A stretch of DNA of 25,140 bases from a virus. Where the stretch lies: the IMG/VR virus record IMGVR_UViG_3300037189_004798, positions 1 to 25,140 of that record; one strand, given 5' to 3'. Each line of letters begins with the position of its first letter. The first letter of the stretch is position 1. Positions 962-18,164 of this stretch are shown here, one piece after another. The translations under genes were made by a program, and so were the position numbers. The notes beneath the pieces are model-generated. The model ran no database searches. It saw only the letters and a list, made by a program, of their open reading frames with translations, and was not told the origin of the DNA.

Positions 962-1468
962 TTACTTTTCGAAATAGAAGCCGAGGGTTTGTCCGAATTT
1001 GTTTGGTTTGTCGATTGCATCGGGGTCAGGGTTTTGCCACTTAGGGTACTTTTCAGGGAAAGTGCACAGATACTTATTCATGCGCTCGATGAAGTGGTCG
1101 CGTTTTTGCGCGTATCGCTGTTCAATAAGCACCATTTCTTCCCTGCTGATTGAGGTCATGTTTTCGCCATCGCGCTTCATGATGGATTTGTTCGTGAATT
1201 TGAAGGTCAGCGGAAGTACTGCCTCGTACAGCACAGAGTATTTTAGAATTGGCTTAATGTAGTCATTAAGTAGGGTTGTGTTATCCGCGCTCAGAGAGGA
1301 CGGAAACTGCGAATACAGCTCATTGTACAGGTCGCTCCCGATCGTATCGCGCAAGGTAACTTCCTGCGCCTCCTGAAGGCTCATCTGAATGAGCTTCGGG
1401 TCGAGATTGTCCTGTACCGGCGTGTTTTCTTTGATGTATGCCGTGTCGATGAAATATTTGAAACTCAT
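962..1468 (-). CDS. Putative head-tail connector (DUF6712-like)
   Basis: A 168-residue protein that looks mostly helical. It opens MSFKYFIDTAYIKENTPVQDN and has the pattern LIQMSLQEAQEVTLRDTIGS, then LYNELYSQF, then a helix with LNDYIKPILKYSVLYEAVLPLTFK. This resembles the DUF6712-type proteins that follow the portal in Bacteroidota phages and are thought to be head-tail connectors. The start ATG overlaps the portal stop (ATGA), so translation is probably coupled. The family assignment is from memory of the sequence pattern and the function is inferred from gene order. Confidence 0.6.
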   Translation of the reverse strand: MSFKYFIDTAYIKENTPVQDNLDPKLIQMSLQEAQEVTLRDTIGSDLYNELYSQFPSSLSADNTTLLNDYIKPILKYSVLYEAVLPLTFKFTNKSIMKRDGENMTSISREEMVLIEQRYAQKRDHFIERMNKYLCTFPEKYPKWQNPDPDAIDKPNKFGQTLGFYFEK

Positions 1469-3228
1469 CCTATGCGCCTCCTGTAAAGTTTAGAATTCCA
1501 GACGTGCCTGCATTGGGGAACATGGGTCGTTGTACCCGCAATGGTTCGCCATCCGCCGCGCCGTTTCCATACATCGTAACCAAGTTCCGCGCTCATTGCA
1601 TCAATTTCTTCGCGTGTGTACAGTTTTTTCTCACCGATTAGAAACCGGCAAAATTCCCGGCTTCCATCAATCAGCGGTGGGCCTCCTACATCGGGGTTGA
1701 CTCCGTATTGGTAAAGGACAAAAATCTCTGTATCGACACCGCCGGATTCCGCGATGGATTGCGCCCCGCTGTCTGTGATTTTGATTTGGTTTTTATCCCA
1801 TGTCACGAAGCCCTTGTCCTGCATTGTCTTTATCACCTTCGTTGCCTCATCTTTGGTGACCCGTGCGCCCTTGGCGATTTCTTCCAGGCTGGCCTTGGGG
1901 TTATCGCGGATCACCGCAACAATTCGCAGTTCCGGATTGGTGAGTTCGGCAAAGAGTTCCGGTAGTTCTTCGTATTCGGATTCGTTCCGGCCATACTTGG
2001 CGAACACCGCTTTGTCGCCTTCGTCATCCCATCCGAATGGGTTAACCGCGCTCATGGTGGTTGCCACTTCCTGAGTAGCGTATCCGAGCGATTCGCGGGT
2101 TTCGTTCCGGTCAATAATCCCGGCTGTGAACAGCTGTACGGTGTCCTGTGCAGCGGGTTCTGCGAGTACCGTACCGATTTTGCCTTCATATCCCATTGCC
2201 TGAAACATCCGCGTAAAAATCCGCTCCATCTGTTCCCGTTTGGGTGCTACATACGCTCGGTCGAAGACCTCATAAGCCTGTGTGAGTTCATTGCGCCCGC
2301 CTAACTGCCCTTCCACACGAACACCGAACAGCATGGGAGAGGTTACCCTGTGGGCATAGAAGATGTTATCGCGCACGGTTTCAGACAGCTGCAAATATTG
2401 CTTGTCGAAGTCACCCGGCATCAAATCCACAACCTGCAATGGGTCTTCCCCTTTCTCCATCCAAGAGATTAGAACGCCATTGGCATTCTCTGTGCCTGTG
2501 GTGTTCGCCTTGAATTTCCGGTCGAATTCAGCCTTTATGTCCTCGGTTGGTTCGCCCTTAAAAATCTGGATGATTTTCCCAAGGGAAAAGCCATTGGTGA
2601 TGTTGTTGTAATGGAAATCCGCAATCTTGGTATCAATTTCAATGTAAGTCCGAGCAGGATACCAATCCGGCAGAGGATACACCCCTTCCCCAGCCCGGTA
2701 TTGCTTGAACCACAGCACTTGAGTGCCGCCCGATTCTTCAGGATTAAATGCCGGAAACTCTAATTTGTCCGTACGCCTGTCCTGCCAATCCTCTGAATAC
2801 CATACCTTCGAGGCATCGGCATTGACCCGGCACTTGTCGAATGGCAGGTGATAGAATGCCACAACCCGCGTTCCGGGAACATTCCAAACGGCCTGAATCG
2901 CATAACCGCCGAAATTCTCCAAGTCCATTGCACACTTAAATCGCAGATCGTGCCAGCTTTCGTAAGGATTAGCGTAATTCAGCGCATTGGCCGCCCCTGC
3001 CTGTGCCGATGTATTTCCGGTCAGGGTAACTGTGGTATCCTTTCCCGCGATGAATTGCGCCTTCTGAGTTACGATGGCATTATGGAGCGATGATGAATTA
3101 TACAGGTCAAGTAAGACCTTTGGGAAATCGTTCTTTTGCCCGTATTCGTACCACTCCTGCCCCCTTGCTTCTTTGAACTTTGGCGGTGGTGCGGCTGCAA
3201 AATTTATCCTCTGAAATTCTACCTTCAT
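1465..3228 (-). CDS. Portal protein with C-terminal winged-helix-like and Cys/His domains
   Basis: 587 residues, long for a portal. The first 420 residues follow the portal pattern: an N-terminal segment with GQEWYEYGQKNDFP, then LHNAIVTQKAQFIAGKD, a middle wing region, and a helix with RVTSPMLFGVRVEGQLGGRNE and YEVFDRAYVAPKREQMERIF, which would be the pore-lining stem. The portal forms the dodecameric ring through which DNA is packaged and to which the tail is joined. Residues about 421-497 look like a winged helix (EEIAKGARVTKDEATKVIKTM, then a KGFVTWDKN wing). Residues about 498-587 carry FCRFLI, LYTREEIDAMS, DVWKRRGGW and CRHVW, a motif set I associate with minor head protein or portal C-termini in other phages. 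The start overlaps the upstream stop (ATGA). Confidence 0.9.
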   Translation of the reverse strand: MKVEFQRINFAAAPPPKFKEARGQEWYEYGQKNDFPKVLLDLYNSSSLHNAIVTQKAQFIAGKDTTVTLTGNTSAQAGAANALNYANPYESWHDLRFKCAMDLENFGGYAIQAVWNVPGTRVVAFYHLPFDKCRVNADASKVWYSEDWQDRRTDKLEFPAFNPEESGGTQVLWFKQYRAGEGVYPLPDWYPARTYIEIDTKIADFHYNNITNGFSLGKIIQIFKGEPTEDIKAEFDRKFKANTTGTENANGVLISWMEKGEDPLQVVDLMPGDFDKQYLQLSETVRDNIFYAHRVTSPMLFGVRVEGQLGGRNELTQAYEVFDRAYVAPKREQMERIFTRMFQAMGYEGKIGTVLAEPAAQDTVQLFTAGIIDRNETRESLGYATQEVATTMSAVNPFGWDDEGDKAVFAKYGRNESEYEELPELFAELTNPELRIVAVIRDNPKASLEEIAKGARVTKDEATKVIKTMQDKGFVTWDKNQIKITDSGAQSIAESGGVDTEIFVLYQYGVNPDVGGPPLIDGSREFCRFLIGEKKLYTREEIDAMSAELGYDVWKRRGGWRTIAGTTTHVPQCRHVWNSKLYRRRIG

Positions 3229-3539
3229 TTGACTTTCATGATGCCCGTTTCCACAACCTCATTGGCGTTGGCAGGGTTGGTGTTGGAACTGCTCGACTGA
3301 GCGTAGATTGTGTATTCGTATTCGCCCTTGACCCATGCGCTGCTCTGCGCCGTGGTGATGGCGAACTGATTGTATCGGCTCGGAAACGATGACAGGTCAG
3401 TCACCAATAGGTTGTAGGTTGTTGACCGCTCTTCCCTGTTGTTAATGGACAGCAGAAAGTAGTAAGGCGGATTTAGCGTTACCTTTTCCGTGGCCGTGAC
3501 CAACAGGGTTGAAGTCTGCGATGTATCGACGATGAGCAT
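3225..3539 (-). CDS. Small virion protein, first gene of the portal unit
   Basis: A 104-residue protein that appears all-beta: alternating hydrophobic strands (STLLVTATEKVTLN, YYFLLSINN, TYNLLVTDLSS) and a C-terminal segment with GEYEYTIYAQSSSSNTNPANA followed by VVETGIMKVK. This pattern recurs in small structural proteins of Bacteroidota phages and suggests an immunoglobulin-like or decoration-type fold, but I cannot name it. It is the first gene behind a late-type promoter element whose last base lies four bases before the ATG, and it overlaps the portal start (ATGA). Head fibre, decoration or neck roles are all possible. Confidence 0.6.
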   Translation of the reverse strand: MLIVDTSQTSTLLVTATEKVTLNPPYYFLLSINNREERSTTYNLLVTDLSSFPSRYNQFAITTAQSSAWVKGEYEYTIYAQSSSSNTNPANANEVVETGIMKVK

Positions 3540-3543
3540 CTAC

Positions 3544-3576
3544 CTATAATGTATCGGATAGAATTTTGTACTTACT
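3544..3576 (-). promoter_or_regulatory. Late-type promoter P1 (TACATTATAG with AGTAAG 17 bases upstream)
   Basis: On the minus strand TACATTATAG (3553 to 3544) sits four bases before ATG 3539, with AGTAAG (3576 to 3571) 17 bases further upstream. The same 10-mer, at the same distance from a start codon, occurs at 9249-9258 and 15085-15094. The upstream hexamer overlaps a plus-strand TACTTTTG box. The repeated motif is observed; promoter function is inferred. Confidence 0.65.
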
Positions 3577-3580
3577 TTTG
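3573..3580 (+). promoter_or_regulatory. Host-type -7 box TACTTTTG before the chaperone-terminase operon
   Basis: TACTTTTG matches the Bacteroidota consensus TAnnTTTG and ends three bases before ATG 3584, which would give a leaderless or nearly leaderless mRNA. No TTG element is present at the usual 19-21 base distance, so the match is one-sided. It interlocks with divergent promoter P1 on the other strand. Confidence 0.5.
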
Positions 3581-3583
3581 TGT

Positions 3584-4183
3584 ATGGATTACCCGAAATC
3601 GTGGAAGGCGGTCAGTCTATCGCAGTTATACGAATTGGATTTGCTCCGGCAGCGAACCGACCTTGATGCCGAGGAAACCATGAACCAGATGCTGTCTGTG
3701 CTGTCGGGGCAGCCGATTGAGGAAATCGAAAAGTTGCCTCATACCGAGCGGATTGCGGATTATCAGCGCATGACATGGCTGGCCGAATACCCAGCTCGCA
3801 AGCCAAAACGGATGCGGTTCAAGGCAGGCGGGAAATGGTATCGGATAGTTGATAACCCAGCCGCGATTTCAGCGGGTGAGTATGCGACACTTCAGGTCAT
3901 CGCGCAGGACGGGAACTTCATCAAGAACCTGAATCAGATACTGGCCTGTCTGATGGTGGAGCAGCAGCGCAAATGGTGTCGGTGGGTGGACGTGCGTTAC
4001 GATAAGACTGCTTCTGCTGAGCAATTCCACAAGAAGGCCGAACTGGTCAGCGGTCTATCGGTGGCACAGGTCTACCCCTACGCGCTTTTTTTTTCGACTC
4101 TCTTGCCCGAATTGCTGCAAACTTCTCTGGACTTTTTCCGGACGCAGGAGAAGAAACTGAGGAAACAGGCAATGACTGGTTGA
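3584..4183 (+). CDS. Tail assembly chaperone, zero-frame product (gpG-like)
   Basis: A 199-residue protein starting MDYPKSWKAVSLSQLYELD. An in-frame TTG at 3566 lies within or before the promoter box, so ATG 3584 is preferred. The pattern is that of tail assembly chaperones in Bacteroidota siphophages: a short N-terminal module, MLSVLSGQPIEEIEKLP, a basic beta hairpin (FKAGGKWYRIVDN), then GEYATLQVIAQDGNFIKNLNQILACLMV. Such chaperones keep the tape measure soluble and guide tail tube polymerisation. The gene contains nine T at 4086-4094; slipping back one base there leads into an open frame that continues to 4374, as in lambda G/GT. The operon continues into terminase. A chaperone is expected between tail tube and tape measure genes, so this location is unusual. 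Confidence 0.7.
   Translation: MDYPKSWKAVSLSQLYELDLLRQRTDLDAEETMNQMLSVLSGQPIEEIEKLPHTERIADYQRMTWLAEYPARKPKRMRFKAGGKWYRIVDNPAAISAGEYATLQVIAQDGNFIKNLNQILACLMVEQQRKWCRWVDVRYDKTASAEQFHKKAELVSGLSVAQVYPYALFFSTLLPELLQTSLDFFRTQEKKLRKQAMTG
4086..4094 (+). promoter_or_regulatory. Programmed -1 frameshift site (nine T)
   Basis: Zero-frame codons here are CTT TTT TTT TCG. A -1 slip on T TTT TTT (4087-4093) gives TTT TTT and then TTC GAC TCT, entering a frame free of stops up to the TGA ending at 4374. Position near the end of a chaperone gene and the open -1 frame beyond fit the tail assembly chaperone frameshift. A homopolymer sequencing error would give a similar picture. Confidence 0.7.
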
Positions 4184-4374
4184 ATATTTTTTACGAAATG
4201 GCAGGCCGGGACTTGACAAAAATGGATGCAATCATGGCCATGCCCCTGATGGAATTTTTCAACTACATGGCCATGCTCAAGACTATCCGCAAGAACCAGG
4301 CTGAGCGATTGAGCAAGGCCAGCAAGGCAGGGTTTGAGGCCTATATTTCCACGCTCGTTTCCGAAATCCTATGA
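4093..4374 (+). CDS. Tail assembly chaperone, -1 frameshift extension (gpT-like)
   Basis: In the -1 frame after the T run the sequence reads FDSLARIAANFSGLF, then an acidic linker (DAGEETEETGND), then WLNIFYEMAGRDLTKMDAIM, then PLMEFFNYMAML and a basic C-terminus; 93 codons before the stop. The pattern of a short helix with GDLTKMDxI followed by a FFNYxAxL motif is typical of the T part of chaperones, which contacts the tape measure. Used alone, this segment could begin only at TTG 4180 or ATG 4198, without a recognisable start signal, so expression as a fusion of about 263 residues is the better reading. Its stop overlaps the terminase start (ATGA at 4371-4374). Confidence 0.7.
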   Translation, partial: FDSLARIAANFSGLFPDAGEETEETGNDWLNIFYEMAGRDLTKMDAIMAMPLMEFFNYMAMLKTIRKNQAERLSKASKAGFEAYISTLVSEIL

Positions 4375-5555
4375 AAATCACCTACCAGCGTCCGCCCCTT
4401 GCACCGTATCAAATCGCCATCCTTGACAGCCCGGCCCGGTACACGGTTACAGCGGCCAGCACGAAGGCAGGTAAGACAGCCTCTCACATTGTATGGCTAT
4501 TCGAGCAGGCCATTCAGGGCAAGAAAGGGCAGTCGTTTTGGTGGGTCGCTCCGGTCTACGGTCAGGCTGAAATTGCGTTCCGGCGATTCAAGCAGCAATG
4601 TTCGCAGAAACTATTTGAGGCCAATGAATCCAAGTTACGCCTTACGCTCCCATCCGGCGCAATGATTGAATTTAAGAGCGCGGAAAAGCCCGACAACCTG
4701 TACGGCGATGACGTGTACGCTGCTGTATTCGATGAGTTCACCCGCGCCCGGGAAGAGGCCTGGTTCGCGCTGCGCTCTACCCTCACCAAGACCCGTGGAA
4801 AGTGCAAGCTAATCGGGAACGTAAAAGGGAAAAAGAATTGGGGCTATCGGCTGGCAGAACGCGCCCGGCAGGGTGAGGACAATTACGAGTTTCACAAAAT
4901 CACGGCGTGGGATGCGGTGGCCGCTGGCATCCTCGATAAGGAGGAAGTCGAGCAGGCGGAGCGCGACCTACCCGCGCACGTGTTTCGGGAATTATACCTT
5001 GCCGAACCTGCCGATGATGATTCAAACCCCTTCGGCCTTGACCATATCCGATCCTGTATTGAACCACTTGCGGATGGGCCGGTGGAATGGTACGGCATTG
5101 ACCTTGCAAAGTACCGTGACTGGACGGCCATTGTCGGGCTGAACAAAGACAAAAAGGTTTGCCTGTTTGAGCGGTTCAGGCTGGACTGGAAGGCAACCCG
5201 TGACAGCGTGGCACGGGTTGTGGGAAAGATTCCCGCTGTGATTGACAGCACCGGCGTAGGCGATCCGATAGTGGAAGACTTGCAGCGCGTATGCCCGCGC
5301 ATTCAGGGGTTTAAGTACACGGCAATTCCCAAACAACAAATCATGGAAGACCTCGCAGTGGCAATTCATGGCCGTGAGGTTGTGTTCCCGGATGGGCCTA
5401 TTGTGGATGAGTTGATGAACTTTGAATGGACACACCGCCGGACAGGGATCAGCTATAACGCCCCGGAGGGCCTACACGATGACTGCGTGAATGCGCTTGC
5501 CTTGGCTCTCCATTGCTCACGTGTTAATAAGAAAGGCTTATTTTTGTTGACATGA
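4371..5555 (+). CDS. terL: Terminase large subunit (TerL)
   Basis: A 394-residue packaging motor and nuclease of usual to short length. The ATPase half has a Walker A variant ASTKAGKT at residues 29-36 and a Walker B VYAAVFDEF with Asp121 and Glu122. The RNase H-like nuclease half has GIDLAKYRDW (Asp244, Asp250), VIDSTGVGD (Asp292) and the C-terminal HDD (370-371) expected to bind metal. TerL docks on the portal, pumps DNA into the prohead and cuts the concatemer. It is translated by ATGA overlap from the chaperone extension and in turn overlaps the next gene by ATGA. The gene next to it is not an obvious small subunit; a better small-terminase candidate lies at 17793-18152. Confidence 0.93.
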   Translation: MKITYQRPPLAPYQIAILDSPARYTVTAASTKAGKTASHIVWLFEQAIQGKKGQSFWWVAPVYGQAEIAFRRFKQQCSQKLFEANESKLRLTLPSGAMIEFKSAEKPDNLYGDDVYAAVFDEFTRAREEAWFALRSTLTKTRGKCKLIGNVKGKKNWGYRLAERARQGEDNYEFHKITAWDAVAAGILDKEEVEQAERDLPAHVFRELYLAEPADDDSNPFGLDHIRSCIEPLADGPVEWYGIDLAKYRDWTAIVGLNKDKKVCLFERFRLDWKATRDSVARVVGKIPAVIDSTGVGDPIVEDLQRVCPRIQGFKYTAIPKQQIMEDLAVAIHGREVVFPDGPIVDELMNFEWTHRRTGISYNAPEGLHDDCVNALALALHCSRVNKKGLFLLT

Positions 5556-6037
5556 CCTGCGCGGAAATCCTCTCCATCGAGCAATGGCCAGAACAGGTCT
5601 GCAAGAAGTTCAGCCCCCATTGGCAGGATTTGCAGCAGGAGCTGTTTCTATTGATTGCCACCGACCTGAAAGAGAAGGCGGAAAAGGCCATCGCCGCCGG
5701 TTACTTTGAATTCTTCTACATCCGGTGTGCGCGGAACTTATCCGGCTCAGGCGGGCGCATCGGTCGCATCAACCAGGGGGGAGAGGCACTTGGCGAATAC
5801 GAAGACGAAGAACAGGACATCGAATTGAGGCTATGGGTGGAAGAAGACACCGAGCAGCGGTTGCAGGCCATTGAGAGAGTGCAGGCCAGGCAGTCTTGGT
5901 ACGAGCGCAAATTGTGCGAATTGTACCTGTCAGGCATGAGCGGGCGAAAAATCCACCGATTCACCAAAATCAGCAAGAACGAGGTCAGCAGGGTCATTCG
6001 GGAATTCCGGGCGCAATGCGTTTCGGAGTATCTGTAA
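5552..6037 (+). CDS. Sigma-factor-like helix-turn-helix protein
   Basis: 161 residues. Residues about 18-70 (FSPHWQDLQQELFLLIATDL, then YFEFFYIRCARNL) resemble sigma-70 region 2, where the typical form is DDLxQExFLxL followed by a helix ending in FxYxxARN. An acidic linker (YEDEEQDIELRLWVEEDTEQ) follows. Residues about 118-152 (YERKLCELYLSGMSGRKIHR, then FTKISKNEVSRVIREFR) look like the region 4 helix-turn-helix. It could direct host RNA polymerase to the three TACATTATAG promoters found at virion genes; alternatively it could be a small-terminase-like DNA-binding partner, because it overlaps TerL (ATGA). What is seen is a two-part helical protein with a C-terminal helix-turn-helix; the sigma role is inference. 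Confidence 0.55.
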   Translation: MTCAEILSIEQWPEQVCKKFSPHWQDLQQELFLLIATDLKEKAEKAIAAGYFEFFYIRCARNLSGSGGRIGRINQGGEALGEYEDEEQDIELRLWVEEDTEQRLQAIERVQARQSWYERKLCELYLSGMSGRKIHRFTKISKNEVSRVIREFRAQCVSEYL

Positions 6038-6045
6038 AAGCAAAA

Positions 6046-6067
6046 AGGCCGCCCCGAAGGACGGCCT
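6046..6067. terminator. Hairpin terminator between convergent genes
   Basis: The arms AGGCCG (6046-6051) and CGGCCT (6062-6067), with inner CC/GG pairs, form a hairpin between the stop of the plus-strand sigma-like gene (6037) and the stop of the minus-strand tail tube gene (6100). On the minus strand it is followed by TTTTTG, a proper U-tract; on the plus strand the following CTCTT is weak. It probably ends the tail tube transcript efficiently and the terminase transcript partly. Confidence 0.7.
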
Positions 6068-6099
6068 CTTGCACCAAATGACAAAACACCGATGCGAAT

Positions 6100-6615
6100 T
6101 TAGCTAATTGAAAGCGAAGTTAGGACGGCGTTTTGCACAATCTGAGGCTGTTCTTTTTCCGCGTGTGTAAACGTCAGGTCAAAGCCGGTCATGTCACCGA
6201 GGGAAACACCGGTCATGGAGCTTCCTGCCGTCATGTCCATACCGCGCTGCAATCCCATCGCCCAGTACTGATTTTCATTCGTCTTCACGATGGCAACCAA
6301 TCGGGCAACCGAGAGCAGTTTCACCTCATTGCGCTTGGCGGTGGACAGCTTGCGCAGCTTGATGTTCAGCTCGGTTGAATTGAACACCGTGCCATTCTCT
6401 ACCGATGGGGTGATGGTGTTTGTGAAGGATGCGGTGTCCTTCGGCAATTCGTACTTAAAAAACGCCTTGCCGCCTGTGAGAGTCAGCGCGGTGATTTCGC
6501 CGCTGGCTGAAGTGTAAGAGGATACGGCTTCGTATTCTACGAGCCATATTTTATCTACGCCCCCGACTGCGTCCTTGCAGTCGTGGCTGAATCCGGTGGT
6601 GAGTATGCAGCTCAT
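6100..6615 (-). CDS. Major tail tube protein (probable)
   Basis: A 171-residue, beta-rich protein beginning MSCILTTGFSHDCKDAVGGVD. It carries the pattern I recall from Bacteroidota phage tail tube candidates: EYEAVSSYTSASGEITALTL, then KAFFKYELPKDTASFTNT, LSTAKRNEVKLLSVARLVAI, QYWAMGLQRGMDMTAGSSMT and a final GFDLTFTHAEKEQP strand. These would polymerise around the tape measure into the tube. It is the last gene of the capsid unit, behind a strong terminator and with no promoter box of its own that I can find, so it may depend on read-through. Another small structural role cannot be excluded from sequence alone. Confidence 0.6.
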   Translation of the reverse strand: MSCILTTGFSHDCKDAVGGVDKIWLVEYEAVSSYTSASGEITALTLTGGKAFFKYELPKDTASFTNTITPSVENGTVFNSTELNIKLRKLSTAKRNEVKLLSVARLVAIVKTNENQYWAMGLQRGMDMTAGSSMTGVSLGDMTGFDLTFTHAEKEQPQIVQNAVLTSLSIS

Positions 6616-6632
6616 GTCTTTTTCTTAGGGTT

Positions 6633-6661
6633 AAAAAAAAGGGCGGGCTATTTACCCGCCC
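6633..6661 (-). terminator. Rho-independent terminator after the major capsid gene
   Basis: On the minus strand GGGCGGG (6661 to 6655), a seven-base loop TAAATAG and CCCGCCC (6647 to 6641) form a perfect GC-rich stem followed by eight T (6640 to 6633). It starts 23 bases after the capsid stop and lies just upstream of the tail tube start. Confidence 0.92.
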
Positions 6662-6684
6662 CTTCGGTTAATGTTTCCTGTCAA

Positions 6685-7650
6685 TTACAGGCTGAAGTAC
6701 ACGATTTGAGTTGGGAAAGCGACCTGAACACCGTACTTGAATTCAGCGTTGAAAATCACGTTCTTTTTCACCGGATCATTGATGAATTCAAACTGCTCTT
6801 CTTCGCCTACGAGGTCAGTACCGATGTAGTAATTCGCCCAGTAGCTGAAGTGGATTTTGTCCGTGCCGTTCAAGCCGGGCAGACCGTACACTTTTGTGCC
6901 TGTGATAGGCTCGATGCACATGAACTGTTCGCCGGTCTCAGGGTTGTAATGGTAGTTGTTGGCTGCAATCAGGTGCTGCTTGTACAACAGGAAAGTGTCC
7001 ACGCCCATGGCGAAGAAACGGTCTTCGCGGGAAAGGATGGCCTTGCCGTCTGTGCTGGCCTGTGCCTGGTTCACCATCTTCAGCACCGCGTCATCAATGT
7101 TGGAAGTTGTCAAGCTGGTGAGCTTTGTCCATCCGCCGCCGGTGGTCGGGTTGCCTTCGATAGGATCGCCTGCGCCACCGAATCCGAGAGCGGTCAAGAT
7201 GGTGTTAAACCCGTCGAATTGGTTACCGGCAACGGTTCCTGCCCAGATGTCGGACTCAAGTTCGTTGGCGATTTTCTGAATTTTCTCGTTTCCGATTTGC
7301 TCTGCAAACGGAAGTTCATTGTCACCGCGTGAACCAGCGGCCATCTGAGTCTGCATCCACTTCACCTTCAGAGCCTTCGGGCATAGGGTCTCATAAACCT
7401 GAATGTCCCCTACGGTCAGAGGGCGCTTTGAAAAGGCGGTTGAACCGGAGCTGGTAGGTTCGCAACCATTAGCCTGGAAGAAGATGGTGCTGTCGAGGAT
7501 GTTCAGGTTGTCCGAGGTCTTGATGCCTGGGATAACCTGCCCCGCACCTTGCAGCATACTTGCGGTGGGAGAGCCAAAGAGGGCTTTGTACAGGAGTGGA
7601 AGGCGGTCTTCTTTCCCGTAATTGTCGAGGTCTGTAACTACGAATGCCAT
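6685..7650 (-). CDS. Major capsid protein
   Basis: 321 residues, of usual size for a HK97-fold shell protein without its own scaffold. It starts MAFVVTDLDNYGKEDRLPLL. Recognisable stretches include ALKVKWMQTQMAAGSRGDNE, the long helix FAEQIGNEKIQKIANELESD followed by IWAGTVAGNQFDGFNTIL (spine helix region), YKQHLIAANNYHYNPETGEQ and a C-terminal strand set ending GVQVAFPTQIVYFSL. The order protease/scaffold, then capsid two bases later, is the standard head module order. It is followed at once by a strong terminator, which would favour high, separate expression of the head unit. Confidence 0.88.
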   Translation of the reverse strand: MAFVVTDLDNYGKEDRLPLLYKALFGSPTASMLQGAGQVIPGIKTSDNLNILDSTIFFQANGCEPTSSGSTAFSKRPLTVGDIQVYETLCPKALKVKWMQTQMAAGSRGDNELPFAEQIGNEKIQKIANELESDIWAGTVAGNQFDGFNTILTALGFGGAGDPIEGNPTTGGGWTKLTSLTTSNIDDAVLKMVNQAQASTDGKAILSREDRFFAMGVDTFLLYKQHLIAANNYHYNPETGEQFMCIEPITGTKVYGLPGLNGTDKIHFSYWANYYIGTDLVGEEEQFEFINDPVKKNVIFNAEFKYGVQVAFPTQIVYFSL

Positions 7651-7652
7651 GT

Positions 7653-9245
7653 TTATTGTGCGTTTTTAATTTTCTTGATTGCGGCTGCGAACTTCTCCAA
7701 TTGCTCATCGCGGCGCGCAGCTTCGCCCCGAAGGCCATTTACTTTCTTCACCGGATCAGCGGCAGGTATAACAGAAAACTGCTCAATCACTTCTACCGTC
7801 TTGGCCTGTGCATTGGTCAGTCGCTCAATGGCGGCTGTCAACTTTTCTATTGCGGTCTGCTGTTCAGCGAACTTGGCAGAATACTCTTCGCGGATCGCGG
7901 CGAATTGGTCAACTGCCAGTTCTTCAGCGGGTTCTTCGTCATTGGCCTTCTCCACGATTTCGGTCACGATGCCGCCTTCGGTGGTAACGAGGTAGCCTTC
8001 GGCTGTTTCGTGTGTGCCGTCCGGAGCGGGTACGAACTCACCTTCTGGTGTCTGTACTTCCAACACCGCGCCTACACCGAGCATTGCGATTTCATCGCCC
8101 GGAAAACGGATAACCGTGCCATCCACGAGTGTGGACTCTGCGAACTTTACTGGGGTTTCTTCCTCTACGGAAAAGCCCAGCAGCTTCTTGATTTCGTTCA
8201 ATTTATTGATTGCGCTCATTTCTGATAATGTTTCGAATTTGAGATTGTCGCACTTTGCGAGAATGGCCGCAATAGCCGACATGGTTTCCTCTTCGGCCTG
8301 AGCTGGCTTGTCCGTAAAATACCCCTCAATGGAAAAGCCCCTGAACTTGCCGTCTTTCACATCCTGCCACACTTGGTTGTTCTCCACGTAATAGGTCAAA
8401 AACCAACTGCCATCGGCTGCGTCTGCCCATGCCTTCGGGGGTGCAATGCCCCTCGATTCGTCTGTAACCCAGCTTTCCATCAGGTACACACCGCCCACCG
8501 GGTTGGCGTGTTCAGCGTTGACGGCATTGTACTTATTCTGCAAGGCCCACAGCTTGACGGCCTTGCGGATGGTCTCCTTGGAAAACTTCACATAGTAGGT
8601 GCTGCCATCCTCTGCCCGGCGCATGATGGGCTTTTCAGCAATCATGGCAGGCCCGGTAATCAATCGCCGTTCTTCCGATTCGATTGAAAACGCCATGCGG
8701 TCTTTCTCGATTTGGTTCAGCGTGGATTCGGTCCACCGCAACATTTCTTCACCGCCCCACAATAGGTAGCTGATAGTACCGCAGGCCTCATCGTCATCAG
8801 GGTTGTAGTATTCTTTGGCACGGCTGAGATACGAATAAGTGCGCTTCACGGTTTCTTCGCTGAGTGCTTCGCCGGATGCAATCTGTTGTGCGCGAACTTT
8901 GCCGACCTGTGTGGCGCATCGGTTATTGATGGCCTCGTTTAATCGGATGCCGCGCTCCGCATTATCGCGGGCTGCTTGTGGATAGTCGGAAAATGAAGAC
9001 AGCTTTTCCTTGTCCTCCCAATAGCTGTAACAGATGGCCGCTGCCTGCTCCTGCTCTTTGCCTTCGCCAATCAGCACAGGAATACACCGGCTGATAAATT
9101 CTTGCTCGGTCTCGCCCGATGTCGGCTCAACGAATTGTTCCGCGCTGAAAAAATGAAAGTCTTCCTCTATCGCGGGTGACTGAACGAGGCTGACCTGTGT
9201 CAGGCCGTCTCCATCTTCGATTTCTAAGTAATAGACGTTGTCCAC
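7653..9245 (-). CDS. Capsid maturation protease (XkdF-like) fused to scaffold
   Basis: 530 residues. Residues 1-30 (YYLEIEDGDGLTQVSLVQSP) and 187-310 resemble the XkdF-like serine protease family: NAEHAN with candidate catalytic His246 and FRGFSIEGYF with candidate Ser305. Residues about 45-185 form an apparent insertion of two modules, one with FISRCIPVLIGEGKEQEQAA, one with YPQAARDNAERGIRLNEAIN and SYLSRAKEYYNPDDDEACGT. From about 320 the protein becomes Glu/Ala-rich with a predicted coiled coil (EYSAKFAEQQTAIEKLTAAI), as expected for a scaffold removed during maturation. The start is GTG 9245, three bases after the TACATTATAG element. Methionines near residues 322 and 343 could give separate scaffold, but I see no firm signal. 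Confidence 0.83.
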   Translation of the reverse strand: MDNVYYLEIEDGDGLTQVSLVQSPAIEEDFHFFSAEQFVEPTSGETEQEFISRCIPVLIGEGKEQEQAAAICYSYWEDKEKLSSFSDYPQAARDNAERGIRLNEAINNRCATQVGKVRAQQIASGEALSEETVKRTYSYLSRAKEYYNPDDDEACGTISYLLWGGEEMLRWTESTLNQIEKDRMAFSIESEERRLITGPAMIAEKPIMRRAEDGSTYYVKFSKETIRKAVKLWALQNKYNAVNAEHANPVGGVYLMESWVTDESRGIAPPKAWADAADGSWFLTYYVENNQVWQDVKDGKFRGFSIEGYFTDKPAQAEEETMSAIAAILAKCDNLKFETLSEMSAINKLNEIKKLLGFSVEEETPVKFAESTLVDGTVIRFPGDEIAMLGVGAVLEVQTPEGEFVPAPDGTHETAEGYLVTTEGGIVTEIVEKANDEEPAEELAVDQFAAIREEYSAKFAEQQTAIEKLTAAIERLTNAQAKTVEVIEQFSVIPAADPVKKVNGLRGEAARRDEQLEKFAAAIKKIKNAQ

Positions 9246-9248
9246 TAT

Positions 9249-9280
9249 CTATAATGTACGGAAGGGCTATCTGTCCTTAT
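9249..9280 (-). promoter_or_regulatory. Late-type promoter P2 (TACATTATAG with ATAAGG 16 bases upstream)
   Basis: On the minus strand TACATTATAG (9258 to 9249) ends three bases before GTG 9245, and ATAAGG (9280 to 9275) lies 16 bases upstream, inside the end of the preceding gene. The hexamer is identical to that of P3. This would start a separate head transcript (protease, capsid). Confidence 0.65.
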
Positions 9281-9866
9281 TTTGGCTCAGAATCTGGAAT
9301 GAGGTCGCAATTTGCTGGCCCATGGCCTGTCCGAGATATTCGCTGAATTCGTCGAAGGTCTGTTGGTTGATGATCTTTGAAAAGAACTGGTTTCCGACCG
9401 TTCCCTTGCGGTTGATTTTCCGTGCCACGGCATACGCGAAACTCTGCCTTCGCTGTGTCTCTGTCTTGCCCCATTCGCTACCTAAGACAATGCCCTTTTG
9501 CCGAACCCAGCCCGTGCTTCCGCCAAGGGCTGCGTATAGTGTGGGGATTGATTGACCCGGCTTTTGGCCTTGGTCTACCGCGTCATAATAATCATTCGCA
9601 TTAATTGCTCCCATTACCTCATTACCCATCTTCCGAGTCCGCGCTGCGTCGAGAGATTGGAAGAGACTCATGCTGGCCCGGCCTGAGGTCGGATTGCGCG
9701 GTAACTTTGAATTCAGCAGGCTTTGCTTTAATCGCTCGGTGGTGTACTCAGTCCATCCGTGAACCAGGTCGGACAGCAGGTCTCCGGATAGGGTCGGCTG
9801 CTCTACATGGCCGCGCCCTAATCGATTCAGATACCGCCGCTGAAGGTCTGTGAGTTTTCCGTTCAT
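9267..9866 (-). CDS. Virion-associated protein of unknown role, downstream of tape measure
   Basis: 199 residues, basic, soluble. It begins MNGKLTDLQRRYLNRLGRGH and later has RASMSLFQSLDAARTRKMGN, DYYDAVDQGQKPGQSIPTL and a C-terminal segment with FAYAVARKINRKGTVGNQFF, followed by FDEFSEYLGQAMGQQI. The second half is weakly reminiscent of small joining or minor tail proteins, but I do not recognise a family. It overlaps the tape measure stop by four bases (ATGA), so it belongs to the tail unit. Its last codons carry the upstream hexamer of promoter P2. Confidence 0.55.
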   Translation of the reverse strand: MNGKLTDLQRRYLNRLGRGHVEQPTLSGDLLSDLVHGWTEYTTERLKQSLLNSKLPRNPTSGRASMSLFQSLDAARTRKMGNEVMGAINANDYYDAVDQGQKPGQSIPTLYAALGGSTGWVRQKGIVLGSEWGKTETQRRQSFAYAVARKINRKGTVGNQFFSKIINQQTFDEFSEYLGQAMGQQIATSFQILSQNKDR

Positions 9867-11512
9867 ATGACCGATGCCCCCCGGAGCATATTTACGCGCC
9901 GCTGTGTGCCGGTTATATCGCCCTCTGTAACGTAGATTTTATTGCTCCATTGCCCGGCCATCTGTGAACCGCCGCCAAGGGTGGATGATGCCGGAAGGGA
10001 TGGCCGCTGGATGCCACCGCCTGCCGGTGTAGGAGCCTGAATGCCGCCGCCCCTGTTGCCGCCCTTGACAATCTGAACCGCCCGCGCTGAATTGGTGATG
10101 ATTACAGCCGCGATTGCCGCGAACTTTGCCAAACCGGCAAGGCCACCCGTTGCCGCGTTGGTAGTGTCTAACGGTGACTGAGAATTTCGCAAGGCCGCCC
10201 CGATTGCCGCGCCGCTGTCAGCCGCAATCTGAGCCAATGCAAAGGCTTTCTGTGCCGCGCTGCCCTGCTCAAATAGTGAGGCCAATGCACCGAGGCTCTG
10301 AGAGGTTGCCGCCTCTATCGTGCGCCGGTGTTCAAAGGCTACCTGATCGGCTTGCTTCTGCCGTTTCACGCGTTCCTCAGCCACCTTGGCCCGTCCGTCC
10401 TCGAATGCCTTGTAAGTTGCTGCCTGTTCATCCAATAGGGCTTTTTCGGCTGCCGCCTCTTCCGCCTTACGCTCTTTGTATGCCGCCGCCTCGGCCGCCC
10501 ATCGTGCCTCCAGTTCAGCGGTGCGCTGTGCTTCGCGTGCCGAATTATCCGCGTCGATTTTGCGCTGCTGTTCTTCCTTTTTACGCTCTGCATCCGCCTG
10601 ACGTTTTTCAAGATTGGCCTGCCGCCTTTCCTCTGCTTCTTCCTGCTGCCTTAATTGTTGCTCAAGCTTCATTTTCTCAAGCTTCAGCCCTACGTCTAAG
10701 GCAGCATTCATAAATGCCACCGATTCATCAGAACCTTTAACTGCCAGTCTGCGCTGCTCCAAGTAGTATTTTTCCAAGTTCTCAAGACGTTTAATCTGGA
10801 ATTCTTCTTCGGTCTTGACCTGACCTGACAAACGCTGCCTGAGTAACTGAATTTCATCCGCTATATCGCCCTGAATTGTTTCCTGTATGGACTCATTCAA
10901 ACTCTGATACGCTTCTTCACTCCTCTCAATTGTCTTGCGAAGTTTTTCGCCTTCCTCTTTCGCCTTCGCCGCGCTGCGAACAAACATATACAGGGTGGCC
11001 GCTACGGCTGCAATAGCCGCACCGATGCCCGTTGCCATGAATGCCCCGGCCATTGTTGAAAACGCCGGTATGACCTGCGTCATAATCGCCGTGCGAATGC
11101 CTACGAGCATGAATTGCATATCCTTCAGCCCCGCAATACCCTGAGCGAATGCCATTGCGCCTTGAATTCGCACCATCGCTTTTTGCAAGTCTTCAGATTC
11201 GCCGCCCAATAAAGCCGCCGCGCCCTGTGCCGCTGCAAACCCATTGGCCATTGTGCCGGTGATATTGGCAATGGCTTGAAATTTATCTGGATGCAGACTT
11301 GCGATGGTGGCGTTCACATCATCCATCCGGTCTTTTAGGTCTGCCACTTTACGCGCCGCCGCTACGGTTCGCGCATCGGTCTCACCGAATGCCTCTGCAA
11401 GGCGCAATGCGTCCTGCTGTGCCTCTCGCAGTTGAGCGCGGAAACTCTTGATTGACTCATCGCCTTTCACCGAGGCTTGCACCTCTACGGGCTGTACTAT
11501 CTTCTTTGCCAT
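9863..11512 (-). CDS. Tail tape measure protein
   Basis: 549 residues with the tape measure layout: an N-terminal helical part (VKGDESIKSFRAQLREAQQD, then coiled coil to about residue 75), a hydrophobic Ala/Gly-rich segment at about 135-185 including ATGIGAAIAAVAATLYMFV, a very long charged coiled coil at about 190-400 rich in Glu, Lys, Arg, Gln and Ala, a second Ala/Gly-rich hydrophobic stretch (KFAAIAAVIITNSARAVQIV), and a Gly/Pro-rich tail. It sets tail length and is probably ejected into the host envelope. At roughly 1.5 angstrom per residue the length suggests a tail near 80 nm. The ATG follows directly on the TAA of the upstream gene. Confidence 0.85.
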   Translation of the reverse strand: MAKKIVQPVEVQASVKGDESIKSFRAQLREAQQDALRLAEAFGETDARTVAAARKVADLKDRMDDVNATIASLHPDKFQAIANITGTMANGFAAAQGAAALLGGESEDLQKAMVRIQGAMAFAQGIAGLKDMQFMLVGIRTAIMTQVIPAFSTMAGAFMATGIGAAIAAVAATLYMFVRSAAKAKEEGEKLRKTIERSEEAYQSLNESIQETIQGDIADEIQLLRQRLSGQVKTEEEFQIKRLENLEKYYLEQRRLAVKGSDESVAFMNAALDVGLKLEKMKLEQQLRQQEEAEERRQANLEKRQADAERKKEEQQRKIDADNSAREAQRTAELEARWAAEAAAYKERKAEEAAAEKALLDEQAATYKAFEDGRAKVAEERVKRQKQADQVAFEHRRTIEAATSQSLGALASLFEQGSAAQKAFALAQIAADSGAAIGAALRNSQSPLDTTNAATGGLAGLAKFAAIAAVIITNSARAVQIVKGGNRGGGIQAPTPAGGGIQRPSLPASSTLGGGSQMAGQWSNKIYVTEGDITGTQRRVNMLRGASVI

Positions 11513-13894
11513 TTATGGTTCTTGAATTAAAAGTATGTTCCAGTCTGCCCCTGTCCATTGGATCGCGGGGCGATATGTATCACCTGCTCCGGGTGTGCCG
11601 ATGTCGGACCGGGTTAAATTGTCCACGCCTTGCAGCCAATCAAGGACCGGCCTGTAACCCTGCCCGCCGCCGCCGTGCGTTGCCCATGCGAACTTGCGCC
11701 CCTGCCCAGGTCCGCCGGTGTACAGGTCCGGCCATCGCTCGTTGTAATCGTCCCTCACGTCGTACCCGCCGCCCGCATCGCCGTTGGAAGGCGTGAACAC
11801 CGCCGCTGTTTTCAGTTTCAGAAACTCGCACCGGGTCAAGTCTTCGCCGCCGGGTACATAGTCGATAATCTTGTTCAGCCGGAAGTATTGCCCATCGAAG
11901 AAATACAGGTCACGGAAGGACCATTTTTGCCAATCCCGCGCCCGCAGGTTCACCATGCAGGTTACGAGCTTGCTGTTTCGGTCCGCAACCTCAGCCAGGT
12001 ATTTGCGCCAATAGCGGTTAACCAGGTTGTTGTTCGTGTAGCTTACACCCGCCGGAAGGTTGATGTAATAGGGCATACCGAAACACAGGTCTTTAGTCGG
12101 GGTGAAGGGGTCATCCAAATGCCCCGCGTGTGGGTAGCCACCGTCTATCTGTTCGCCGTTCAGCCAATAGGTAGGGCTTGCAACCTCATCTGCTAAAATC
12201 CAAGATTCATCCCCCACTTTACCTGACCAGTATAGAATACGCAATTCGCCTTGCGTCTTCCGGTCCGTCTGCATGGCCGCTATCCTGATTTTACCGCCCA
12301 ACCCGGAAATGTACGGCGTGGAGACAAAGGGTATTTCGATCTTCTTTTCTTCCTTGATGAACTCGTTATCCGTGAACACCCGTGCCTCGCCATAAACCCT
12401 GCCCATTGCCTCTGCGTACTCTTTGCTGTCCTCGTCCTGCCCCTGTTTGTAGGTGAACACATACGGGTTGCCCTCAAGTTCCCCCATGGGGGTTATGGTC
12501 ATGGGCTGCGACCGGTCAATCCTTGCCGACAGGTCATGGACCACCGTATCGCGGTAAAATTCATCACGCGGTGCAATGTGCAATTCGTTGCCCCTTCCGG
12601 TTGGTTCGATGTAAAGATTTGCCATGCGGACCATCGTGCGAAGCAATTCGCCCTGTGTCCAGTCCTGTGTCGCAAAGAAGCTGTTAAAGTCCACAGCCTG
12701 CCCGCCTTGCGCGGTAGGAATAACCCGAAAATAACTGCCTGCGTTAATGGTCAGGGTATAGCCGGACGCGATAGTTACCGCGCCGCTGCCCGCTGGGGTT
12801 GCATAGACGTTCAGCGGGCGCACCTCTATGGGTTCACCGAAGGCTGCAAAGATTGTCCCCAGAAACGCGGTGGTCTGCCTGCTTGCTCCGGTTATCGCGT
12901 TATTGAGCATGATGCCGGACGTTGCCACGTCTGCCAGCCTTCCATTCACATAAACGCCAAATTCTACCGTAATGCGCGGATAGGTAATGTCAGACAGGCC
13001 CGTAATTGTTACATCCAGTCCGAGTCCGACCTGATACCGCCCGCCCCATACTCCGGGAACATATTGACCTGTTGACGTGTTGTACAGCCCGCCGGGATCG
13101 GAGCCGCCGCCCGTGCTGTCGTTGTTGAAAACTATTGTAGCTCCTACCGCGTAATTGGCATTGCTGCTGCGCAGCGCGTACACCTTCCGCGCATCAATTT
13201 CATCCTGTGTCAGCCTCAGCCATGCGGGAGCTGGTATAACCCATTCCTTGAATTCATCGGAATTGAAGAAGCTGTCTGCTGAATAGCTGAATCCGGCATC
13301 GCTGAAAATCTTATCAATTACCTGTTTGGCAAAAACGCACGGGGTAAGTTCATTTACGCCCCATACATTGTCGAGGTTCGCGCCCCGGCCCATGTCAATT
13401 AGCGGGTAAACGTACCCGTCTGCCCAGTCATGGGACCAGCTATCCTTAACAATGGTCTTTGTGATTGTGTGGTTAAATTCGGATATGTCCAATTCGTACA
13501 GTTTCCGGTCCCTGATTTTCGCGAACAGGTCCGCCCCTTCGCCGTGAACGCTCACCTCGTATTCAATCTCCCCGCGCCGGGTTACGTTTATGTTCAATAA
13601 CCTCATGTAGCCCCGAACCTGTTCTACCTCATCCACGGTGACCAATGCGGATGCTTTTTTGTTCGGGTTGAAATCCGGCGCGAACTGCGTGCCGGTGTTC
13701 AGCTGCTCCTGATTGATGTCGAAGATATGCCCGAAAATCTTATTGTTGTTCGCCGTGCCGGGTATGCGGTAGGTTTTTGACCAATCGGAAGACCGTGCAT
13801 CCGGTTCGCGGATGTCGGCAATCTCCCTGGTCACCTGCAATGCCTCGTTCTCGGCAATATCCAACTGCCGCCCCTCAATGAACAGCCGCATCAT
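11513..13894 (-). CDS. Large tail tip / hub structural protein
   Basis: 793 residues. It opens MMRLFIEGRQLDIAENEALQ and continues with a segment reading DARSSDWSKTYRIPGTANNN, the pattern of a widespread Bacteroidota phage tail protein whose start contacts the tail end. The middle is beta-rich with Gly/Ser/Thr repeats, and later parts (WTQGELLRTMVRMANLYIEP, then EFYRDTVVHDLSARIDRSQP) resemble baseplate hub or tail-associated proteins. The C-terminus is Gly/Asp/Trp-rich (GGPGQGRKFAWATHGGGG), possibly surface exposed. It overlaps the upstream gene by ATGA. The structural assignment is firm from context and pattern; a Tal or hub function is inference. Confidence 0.72.
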   Translation of the reverse strand: MMRLFIEGRQLDIAENEALQVTREIADIREPDARSSDWSKTYRIPGTANNNKIFGHIFDINQEQLNTGTQFAPDFNPNKKASALVTVDEVEQVRGYMRLLNINVTRRGEIEYEVSVHGEGADLFAKIRDRKLYELDISEFNHTITKTIVKDSWSHDWADGYVYPLIDMGRGANLDNVWGVNELTPCVFAKQVIDKIFSDAGFSYSADSFFNSDEFKEWVIPAPAWLRLTQDEIDARKVYALRSSNANYAVGATIVFNNDSTGGGSDPGGLYNTSTGQYVPGVWGGRYQVGLGLDVTITGLSDITYPRITVEFGVYVNGRLADVATSGIMLNNAITGASRQTTAFLGTIFAAFGEPIEVRPLNVYATPAGSGAVTIASGYTLTINAGSYFRVIPTAQGGQAVDFNSFFATQDWTQGELLRTMVRMANLYIEPTGRGNELHIAPRDEFYRDTVVHDLSARIDRSQPMTITPMGELEGNPYVFTYKQGQDEDSKEYAEAMGRVYGEARVFTDNEFIKEEKKIEIPFVSTPYISGLGGKIRIAAMQTDRKTQGELRILYWSGKVGDESWILADEVASPTYWLNGEQIDGGYPHAGHLDDPFTPTKDLCFGMPYYINLPAGVSYTNNNLVNRYWRKYLAEVADRNSKLVTCMVNLRARDWQKWSFRDLYFFDGQYFRLNKIIDYVPGGEDLTRCEFLKLKTAAVFTPSNGDAGGGYDVRDDYNERWPDLYTGGPGQGRKFAWATHGGGGQGYRPVLDWLQGVDNLTRSDIGTPGAGDTYRPAIQWTGADWNILLIQEP

Positions 13895-15081
13895 AACCTC
13901 TGCCTCCGGTCTTTCAATGCCCGCTGAATGGTGATTGAGTATTGTACCAATCCATCGCGGTTGTACTTCCGCTCAAAGTCAGCGGTGACCATTGTTACCT
14001 TTTCCAGTGCGCTGAAGCTGCCCATGTATGCCACAGGGCTGAATACAAGCTGCTCGATGAATTCGGCCTCTGCGTCCGTCAGGAAGTCCGTATTCAGCAC
14101 CCATTGCTCGGTAAGGGTGGTGTTGTAATTGCTCACGCCGCCCCGGCTGTTGGCGTAGTTGTAGCTGCCCGCCGTGTAGCGGAAGGCATCCTGCTCAAAT
14201 GTCTTGCGCTCTGCATTCAGAGTGCGAACCGTGCGTTTCCGGAAGGTATAAGAATCGAATCCGCCCAGGGTGTTGAGGAAATGAAGGGTAACCGGATCGT
14301 ACTTGGAACACTCCGACCACAAGTTAAACCGCATGGTTTCCGATGCCTTGCCCGCGTATCCGGACGGATAGGCCTGTACTGTGTAGTAAGCCTCATTGCC
14401 CGAAGTAAATCCGATGCTGTTAAAGCTTGTATCGATGCACAGCAGCCGGTCTTTGTAATCCGTATAGGTTCGGTTCTTCGTCACCGTCTGCAATAGTGTT
14501 CCCGCTGCATTGTAGCTCTTGAACTCAACTACCTTATTGACCGTATCCGTGCCGAATAGCGCGGTCAGGCTGTGCTGCTCTGCTGCCTGTACGGAGCGCG
14601 GCCGGACATCGGTGAGGAACTTTGCCCCTGCTGTTCCGCCGCTCGCTGTGAGGTAGTCGGCAGCCGCGAAGGTCGGGAAGTCTTGAATCGGTACGCAGGC
14701 ATCCCAACTGAACTTATTGGCTGTATTGACTACCCCGCTTGCCTCTGTGACGCTCCCTGAGCCGGACTCGTATCCGAACTTCGCCCGCCACGTGGTAATC
14801 CTGTCTTGCGCGACGATTGCCGCCGCTGACGGTGGCTGGAAGTCATTGCCGACATAGCTGCCGATAATCTCGGTGACATCGAATACCGCTTCATTCTGTG
14901 TGCTGCCATAGCGTATGGGTGCTTTGAGTTTTGCGACGATTGAGCCGTTTACCTCGACTTCGCACAGGTAGCGGAAATTAGCCGCTCCGGTGATTGCGTT
15001 ATCGGATTCGCGAACTACGAATGTGAGCGGATTGAACGCGGGTGAGTACTCGGACGGCTGCTGCTCTATTGAATAGGCCAT
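13891..15081 (-). CDS. Distal tail structural protein
   Basis: 396 residues, the first gene of the tail unit. It begins MAYSIEQQPSEYSPAFNPLT, followed by FVVRESDNA and FRYLCEVEVNGSIVAKLKAP, then NEAVFDVTEIIGSYV. This N-terminal module recurs in tail proteins of Bacteroidota phages. The C-terminal half is beta-rich (FDSYTFRKRTVRTLNAERKT) and ends with KYNRDGLVQYSITIQRALKD. It probably makes part of the tail tip with the next gene, which it overlaps by ATGA. It is read before the tape measure, the reverse of the commonest siphophage order. The ATG lies three bases after the TACATTATAG element. Confidence 0.7.
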   Translation of the reverse strand: MAYSIEQQPSEYSPAFNPLTFVVRESDNAITGAANFRYLCEVEVNGSIVAKLKAPIRYGSTQNEAVFDVTEIIGSYVGNDFQPPSAAAIVAQDRITTWRAKFGYESGSGSVTEASGVVNTANKFSWDACVPIQDFPTFAAADYLTASGGTAGAKFLTDVRPRSVQAAEQHSLTALFGTDTVNKVVEFKSYNAAGTLLQTVTKNRTYTDYKDRLLCIDTSFNSIGFTSGNEAYYTVQAYPSGYAGKASETMRFNLWSECSKYDPVTLHFLNTLGGFDSYTFRKRTVRTLNAERKTFEQDAFRYTAGSYNYANSRGGVSNYNTTLTEQWVLNTDFLTDAEAEFIEQLVFSPVAYMGSFSALEKVTMVTADFERKYNRDGLVQYSITIQRALKDRRQRL

Positions 15082-15084
15082 TTC

Positions 15085-15118
15085 CTATAATGTATCGAAA
15101 TCCAAAATGCGCCCTTAT
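15085..15118 (-). promoter_or_regulatory. Late-type promoter P3 (TACATTATAG with ATAAGG 18 bases upstream)
   Basis: On the minus strand TACATTATAG (15094 to 15085) ends three bases before ATG 15081, with ATAAGG (15118 to 15113) 18 bases upstream. It follows a terminator closing the early block and would start the tail transcript. A 20-base palindrome lies two bases upstream of the hexamer. Confidence 0.68.
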
Positions 15119-15144: not shown

Positions 15145-15173
15145 AAAAAAAGGCCACCCTGTTACAGATGGCC
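15145..15173 (-). terminator. Rho-independent terminator closing the early block
   Basis: On the minus strand GGCCATCT (15173 to 15166) and GGGTGGCC (15159 to 15152) pair over eight positions with two G-U pairs around a TGTAAC/A loop, followed by seven T (15151 to 15145). It lies 70 bases after the stop of the last early gene and before promoter P3. Confidence 0.82.
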
Positions 15174-15243
15174 CCAGCCCCTTTGTTTCATGCGGCAGAA
15201 AGCACTCATCCGCTCCGCGAATCTCTCGCGGCAGCATTCGGGG

Positions 15244-16484: not shown

Positions 16485-16514
16485 CAAAGGTAATATCTTT
16501 CTGAAAACCTGCAA
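16485..16514 (-). promoter_or_regulatory. Bacteroidota-type promoter (TTG, 19 bases, TACCTTTG)
   Basis: On the minus strand TTG (16514 to 16512), a 19-base spacer and TACCTTTG (16492 to 16485) match the Bacteroidota sigma consensus (TTTG or TTG with 19-21 bases to TAnnTTTG). ATG 16480 follows after four bases, so the transcript probably begins at or next to the start codon. Confidence 0.85.
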
Positions 16515-16525: not shown

Positions 16526-16573
16526 GCTAAACAGGCTAAACGCTTACCGAACTACACCAAATATTTACCGAAC
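16526..16573. repeat. Paired direct repeats upstream of the early promoter
   Basis: GCTAAAC occurs at 16526-16532 and 16535-16541, and TTACCGAAC at 16544-16552 and 16565-16573. The second pair is 21 bases apart, two helical turns, and its outer copy overlaps the stop of the glycosyltransferase gene. They lie just upstream of the promoter at 16485-16514 and could bind a regulator. Confidence 0.55.
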
Positions 16574-17593: not shown

Positions 17594-17796
17594 TTGCTAT
17601 GGAAGTTATAGTGGTGTGTTCCCTCCGTGTCGATGATGCAATGCAGCCTGCCGACTACCTTCAGCCAAGGATATTGAAGTCGGCATATCGCCTCAGCCTG
17701 CATCCAGCTTATTGCCTCGATGTTCTGCCCGGCATACTTTTTCAGCCTGCCGTCCCCCTGGTCAATTGCGGTGAATTCGGTGATGTAGGTCTTCAT
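17590..17796 (-). CDS. Small protein of unknown function
   Basis: 68 residues, starting MKTYITEFTAIDQGDGRLKK, with a central IEAISWMQAEAICRLQYPWL and a terminal His-rich part (THHYNFHSN). Beta-helix-beta appearance, no family recognised. It sits in a chain of four-base overlaps between the small-terminase candidate and the GT4-like gene, so it is almost certainly translated. Confidence 0.55.
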   Translation of the reverse strand: MKTYITEFTAIDQGDGRLKKYAGQNIEAISWMQAEAICRLQYPWLKVVGRLHCIIDTEGTHHYNFHSN

Positions 17797-18152: not shown

Positions 18153-18164
18153 TGTTTCCCTGTT

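Follow-up and report, generated by a model that had tools for sequence, protein, structure and literature searches.

Four sites in the 25,140-bp window, the whole stretch of DNA that we analysed and a complete IMG/VR virus contig, carry a two-part element that sequence comparison strongly identifies as a phage-specific promoter. We consider it fairly probable that these sites, P1–P4, are late promoters that yield near-leaderless mRNAs and are read by an ECF-like sigma factor of the phage itself, encoded at 5552–6037. The virion genes (portal, S78-type head protease, putative capsid, tape measure and further tail genes) are on the minus strand, and the plus strand carries the terminase and the small sigma-like gene. 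The P1 unit (366–3539, minus strand) begins with a small protein (3225–3539) and the portal (1465–3228), followed by genes 962–1468 and 366–917. The P2 unit (6100–9245, minus strand) holds the S78-type protease/scaffold gene (7653–9245), the gene at 6685–7650, which its position makes the putative major capsid gene, and 6100–6615; the P3 unit (9267–15081, minus strand) holds 13891–15081, 11513–13894, the tape measure (9863–11512) and 9267–9866. Replication genes, encoding a DnaB helicase, an ERF annealing protein and a DnaA domain IV protein, occupy the right end of the window. Relatives of the window portal were found only in Nonlabens and Bacteroides phages, which together with host-type TAnnTTTG boxes point to a host in the Bacteroidota. 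Terminase relatives sought in bacterial genomes gave none, an Rfam search returned no match, and canonical sigma-70 promoters were counted no more often than in shuffles.

The initial annotation had drawn attention to a 10-mer, TACATTATAG, on the minus strand at 3553–3544, 9258–9249 and 15094–15085. This was borne out: the window holds exactly three copies and no further one with one mismatch allowed, and three matches arose in 0 of 100 dinucleotide shuffles. The copies do sit 4, 3 and 3 nt before ATG 3539, GTG 9245 and ATG 15081, which open the first genes of the virion units. The hexamers proposed as the −35 partner, ATAAGG or AGTAAG, are indeed present 16 (P2), 17 (P1) and 18 nt (P3) from the 10-mer, but they are not conserved in relatives. 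At P2, ATAAGG is the coding end of gene 9267–9866 and becomes ATCGCG or ACCGCG in three relatives (L008–L010); at P3 it becomes ATTGGG in four others (L197, L198, L084 and L200). At P1, AGTAAG shares bases with the reverse complement of TACTTTTG; this divergent box has the host-type TAnnTTTG form (3573–3580, plus strand), is followed by TGT and ATG 3584 and heads the terminase and sigma unit. The relatives, the coding-sequence overlap at P2 and the divergent-box overlap at P1 rule these hexamers out as a −35. Scanning viral contigs for ATAAGG-N14–20-TACATTATAG was uninformative, with 115 stretches, many of them in unrelated contigs. Both the sequence and the position of the proposed −35 were wrong, since the conserved part lies 4–6 nt further downstream, and the variable spacing of 16–18 nt is replaced by a fixed 15 nt to a conserved upstream element.

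As the alignments define it, the real element is GACA, exactly 15 nt, CATTATAG, 2–5 (mostly 3) nt and the start codon. Orthologous upstream regions from 78 terminase, 34 P3-gene and 80 sigma-gene relatives were aligned on the box. Across eight loci, a scan for [GA]ACA-Nn-CATTA gave 22 matches at n=15 against 0–6 at each other n from 8 to 23; a start codon followed 5–7 nt downstream in 20 of the 22, and shuffles averaged 0.01–0.05 matches with a start per locus. When the upstream four bases were left unconstrained in about 75 non-redundant P1–P4 sites, the tetramer was GACA in 58, AACA in 7, TACA in 4 and CGCA in 6, so that NACA stood at exactly the 15-nt position in 69 of 75, across P1–P4. No upstream conservation extended past GACA in the relatives' aligned sites. 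A weight matrix trained outside the window's clade gave P4, P2, P1 and P3 the four highest scores among about 50,000 window positions (20.2, 19.7, 16.8 and 16.0), with the next position at 12.3. The pattern also matched P1, P4, P2, P3 and one other place in a 32.9-kb relative, where the reversed pattern had no match. These comparisons give good support to the earlier proposal of a shared, phage-specific late promoter distinct from the TAnnTTTG boxes. In a distant clade the box is altered to TACTTTT, TACTATT or TACATTTA, and a −35 sought there gave no clear candidate.

The individual sites vary mainly in their upstream tetramer. P1 (3544–3570, minus strand) consists of TACA at 3570–3567, the 15-nt spacer and CATTATAG at 3551–3544, followed by GTAG and ATG 3539; among 20 non-redundant P1 orthologues, 16 have GACA or AACA and 4 have TACA. 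P2 (9249–9275, minus strand) has GACA at 9275–9272, N15 and CATTATAG at 9256–9249, then ATA and GTG 9245, a start codon that is ATG in several relatives. At P3 (15085–15111, minus strand), CGCA at 15111–15108 precedes N15 and CATTATAG at 15092–15085, with GAA and ATG 15081 following; the weak CGCA belongs to the window's clade, and 13 other orthologues have GACA. Just upstream of P3, an intrinsic-terminator-like hairpin (15150–15175, minus strand) splits it from the upstream transcription unit, and an equivalent GGCC...GGCC-T6 hairpin is present in L197–L201.

The fourth copy, P4, had gone unnoticed in the initial annotation and lies inside the head-protease gene (8223–8249, minus strand), with GACA at 8249–8246, N15, CATTATCA at 8230–8223, GAA and ATG 8219. 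It heads a nested in-frame ORF of 188 aa (MSAINKLNEIKKLL...; 7653–8219, minus strand), whose ATG 8219 is kept in all 25 non-redundant aligned copies. The genes of that alignment were picked by the motif itself, and the test was repeated with genes chosen by homology only: P4 was then present in 26 of 28 unique protease copies, the other two being short, split reading frames. Windows of 13 codons around P4 show the highest synonymous constraint of the protease gene, with identical codons in a fraction of 0.93 of same-residue pairs, compared with 0.55 gene-wide and 0.75 at the next best place. Intact copies always encode leucine at P4 by TTA, the codon of some 10% of leucines, and retain CATTA while the preceding residue alternates between Thr (ACA) and Pro (CCA). 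The codon constraint and the persistence of CATTA across the Thr/Pro switch therefore indicate that the DNA itself, not the protein alone, is under selection. From its position between the protease and capsid genes, the nested ORF probably encodes the capsid scaffold. Nested protease/scaffold genes occur in other phages. Compared with a lambda C/Nu3-like arrangement, the gene here has a conserved internal in-frame ATG with its own promoter element, which would give the C-terminal part of the protease as a separate, putative product.

The placement of the boxes bears on where transcripts would start. In most sites CATTATAG lies at about −11 to −4 relative to the start codon, and the TAnnTTTG boxes of the window lie 3–6 nt from theirs. 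An example of the early class is TACCTTTG (16485–16492, minus strand), 4 nt before ATG 16480 and with TTG about 19 nt upstream. The TAnnTTTG boxes of the distant clade stand exactly 4 nt from the ATG in 16 of 21 near-start cases, with TTTG or TTG some 19–20 nt upstream of them. Four members of that clade (L246, L254, L260 and L268) have very uniform early promoters of the form TTTG/TTG-N~19–20-TATATTTG-N4-ATG, a regularity that suggests leaderless early genes. In Flavobacterium johnsoniae, the −7 box precedes the transcription start by 4–5 nt (PMC6847099). Applied to the phages, this distance predicts that promoters of both classes start transcription at or within 1–2 nt of the start codon. 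The late mRNAs would by implication be leaderless or near-leaderless, a kind of mRNA rare in Bacteroidota hosts, and the initial annotation overlooked this meaning of the 3–4 nt distance. Leaders exceed 10 nt in 87% of cases in F. johnsoniae (PMC6847099), those under 10 nt make up 3.7% in Bacteroides thetaiotaomicron (PMC7366714), and 5.5% of F. psychrophilum mRNAs are leaderless (PMC9723704). Leaderless genes are marked by a TA-like signal about 10–12 bp before the start, found in 1 of 37 Bacteroidetes/Chlorobi genomes surveyed (PMC3160421). The placement of CATTATAG at −11 to −4 resembles this signal, in genes of a kind that the same survey found rare in Bacteroidetes/Chlorobi.

We then turn to the protein that may read these sites. 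The gene at 5552–6037 (plus strand) encodes a candidate phage sigma factor of 161 aa, with two helical domains resembling regions 2 and 4 and a disordered linker. It had no Pfam match and no confident PHROG match, the Sigma70_r2/Sigma70_r4 family profiles left 16 homologues unmatched with only weak HTH matches, and a sequence search of the PDB with the sigma family gave nothing meaningful. AlphaFold2 models of the protein and of a homologue about 25% identical (pLDDT 80.2 and 80.3) both consist of two helical domains and a disordered linker, the composition of ECF (group IV) factors, which have no region 1.1 or 3. Foldseek against the PDB placed ECF sigma factors first for both models, with a best E of 0.036 for the window protein and 0.015 for the distant relative. 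Whole-chain matches reached E values of only 0.015–0.04 with low TM-scores, low because the linker is disordered; the C-terminal domain alone resembles sigma-E region 4 bound to −35 DNA (2h27) with a TM-score of 0.68–0.71 by target. Among BFVD viral models, the best matches (E from 7e-5) were uncharacterised phage proteins, followed by many phage sigma24/ECF proteins. The predicted structures thus support an ECF-like sigma by fold; we call it ECF-like and do not file it as an ECF member because the sigma family profiles were unmatched.

The distribution of the gene agrees with that of the boxes. Profile searches found it in all nine of the relatives tested that have boxes near start codons, among them the distant clade with its changed boxes, and in 0 of 7 records whose P3 orthologue is boxless. 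Presence and absence track phylogeny and amount to one lineage contrast, which is supportive and not proof. The sigma-like gene of the initial annotation accordingly stands at the level of fold and of co-occurrence with the box; that its protein reads these promoters we infer. In the window's clade the gene follows terL; the distant clade has it apart from terL, upstream and close to an HNH gene. A further TATTTTTG promoter, immediately ahead of 5552, was considered and rejected: it occurs in the window and L214, is lost in several relatives and falls within the terL coding sequence. The neighbourhood also varies in other ways. An insertion of about 0.6 kb separates terL from the sigma gene in L017 (10558–11191) and L024, and L021 has additional sequence following the sigma gene; such insertions are possibly a mobile gene. 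In the distant clade, as in L053 and its relatives, terL and the virion genes run collinearly on one strand, a module rearranged relative to the window.

These observations can be assembled into a model in which sigma assignment, start sites, late timing and the dose effect of P4 are inferred. Host sigma-A holoenzyme would first read the TAnnTTTG promoters, including the divergent one heading the terminase–sigma unit, and the ECF-like sigma of 5552–6037 would then bring host core polymerase to P1–P4. There, the −35-like GACA, the fixed 15-nt spacer and the −10/−7-like CATTATAG would set transcription at or within 1–2 nt of the start codon. P1 would drive the portal unit, P2 the protease–capsid unit, P3 the tail unit and P4 the nested scaffold and the capsid. 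Transcripts from P4 would add scaffold and capsid without protease, and so raise both relative to the protease. Whether leaderless transcription serves a whole lineage of Bacteroidota-type phages throughout, with sigma-A early and an ECF-like sigma late and with a scaffold promoter embedded in the protease gene, seems to us an evenly balanced question.

The main competitor keeps the promoters and changes the reader: an alternative sigma of the host, whether ECF or another, or host sigma-A helped by a phage activator would act at P1–P4, and 5552–6037 would encode, for example, a terminase-linked DNA-binding protein. The place of this gene after terL in the window's clade and its lack of a Pfam sigma match would fit, as would the seven ECF sigma factors of Flavobacterium psychrophilum (PMC9723704) and the TAnnTT partly common to both box types. 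However, the distant-clade copy sits away from terL, and its location therefore does not mark the product as a packaging accessory. In addition, the two predicted structures match ECF sigma factors that have region-2 and region-4 domains, and the gene co-occurs with the boxes. We regard a host-encoded reader as rather unlikely.

A different objection is that CATTATAG is no promoter but an AT-rich or Kozak-like translation-initiation element of the Bacteroidota, which initiate without Shine-Dalgarno signals via the sequence just upstream (PMC6847099), and the box does lie 2–5 nt from start codons. Yet the capsid, tape measure, portal and 11513–13894 genes, all inside units, have no box; boxes are found where units begin, with P3 coming after a terminator and P1 facing a divergent promoter. 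A partner element held strictly 15 nt away is the geometry of promoters and would not be expected for a ribosome signal, and we hold a purely translational role to be very unlikely. Just as hard to credit, if not slightly harder, is an arrangement in which transcription starts upstream from another promoter, giving short leaders, and the box serves as the operator of a repressor or activator. Upstream sequence is unconserved beyond GACA, and a repressor site needs no place within 5 nt of four unrelated starts, one of them intragenic. Chance recurrence, or functionless ancestral duplication of starts, might be entertained for a 10-mer with as few as three copies, but it is refuted by the shuffles, the out-of-clade matrix ranking, the spacer spike and the synonymous constraint at P4, and its probability is negligible.

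Several known systems resemble the phage sigma and promoters preferred here. In T4, the small phage sigma gp55 switches host polymerase to late genes, whose promoters consist of TATAAATA without a −35 and require the sliding clamp. A small phage sigma for late genes is thus the likeness, and the −35-like element here is the difference. ECF promoters are bipartite, their two elements strictly spaced at about 15 nt, and transcription starts 5–6 nt after the −10 hexamer. ECF sigmas such as E. coli sigma-E (PDB 1or7/2h27) are alike in the predicted two-domain fold and the bipartite promoter geometry; the differences are that the protein here has no sequence-profile match to sigma families and that the box is unlike known ECF motifs. 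The closest precedent is phiEco32 and Salmonella phage 7-11, whose phage-encoded sigma, a distant relative of the sigma-A family, reads short AT-rich boxes, TAATGTATA or TGATGT-TATA, before structural genes, with host promoters used early (PMC4331800). The passages on these promoters describe no fixed-spacing upstream partner (PMC4331800), whereas here the element is GACA-N15-CATTATAG. The hosts also differ, the boxes here are no more than 5 nt from starts, with one of them intragenic, and the P1–P4 consensus does not match the TAATGTATA or TGATGT core. Sigma-A promoters of the Bacteroidota have the form TTTG / TAnnTTTG (PMC6847099, PMC7366714). Their downstream box is placed as in P1–P4 with respect to the predicted start, and a TA..TT core is common to them and the window's clade. 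In place of TAnnTTTG at −7 and TTTG near −33, P1–P4 have CATTATAG or CATTATCA with GACA, TACA or CGCA, so that TTTG is missing both from the −7 box and from around −33, and GACA stands at 15 nt instead.

In the literature searched, largely outside the subscription journals, no late promoter class defined for phages of the Bacteroidota was found. If the reading is true, four sites and one 161-aa protein would constitute the first early–late switch model for these phages, and a compact orthogonal promoter–sigma pair for a phylum whose promoters fail with standard tools. Should the mRNAs be leaderless, the phages would use in bulk an initiation mode rare in their hosts, within a phylum whose ribosomes already disregard Shine-Dalgarno signals.

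Other features of these genomes were observed along the way. The portal of the window (1465–3228, minus strand) has a C-terminal MarR-type winged helix-turn-helix at residues 429–476 (Pfam E 2e-6), which is unusual in a portal. The 152-aa protein at 23772–24230 (minus strand), near the DnaB helicase and ERF genes, is mostly DnaA domain IV (Bac_DnaA_C, E 4e-20) and is a possible phage origin-binding protein. A cluster at 16565–20637 (minus strand) contains a weak glycosyltransferase match and DUF5681, ParB-N, HNH and methyltransferase genes, and gene 16565–17593 still adjoins terL in the distant clade. Among the relatives, L260 carries a tRNA-Gly gene, and in L056 a tRNA-Ile gene (12545–12625; anticodon tat) shortly precedes a late-type box (about 12749) that heads a gene unit.
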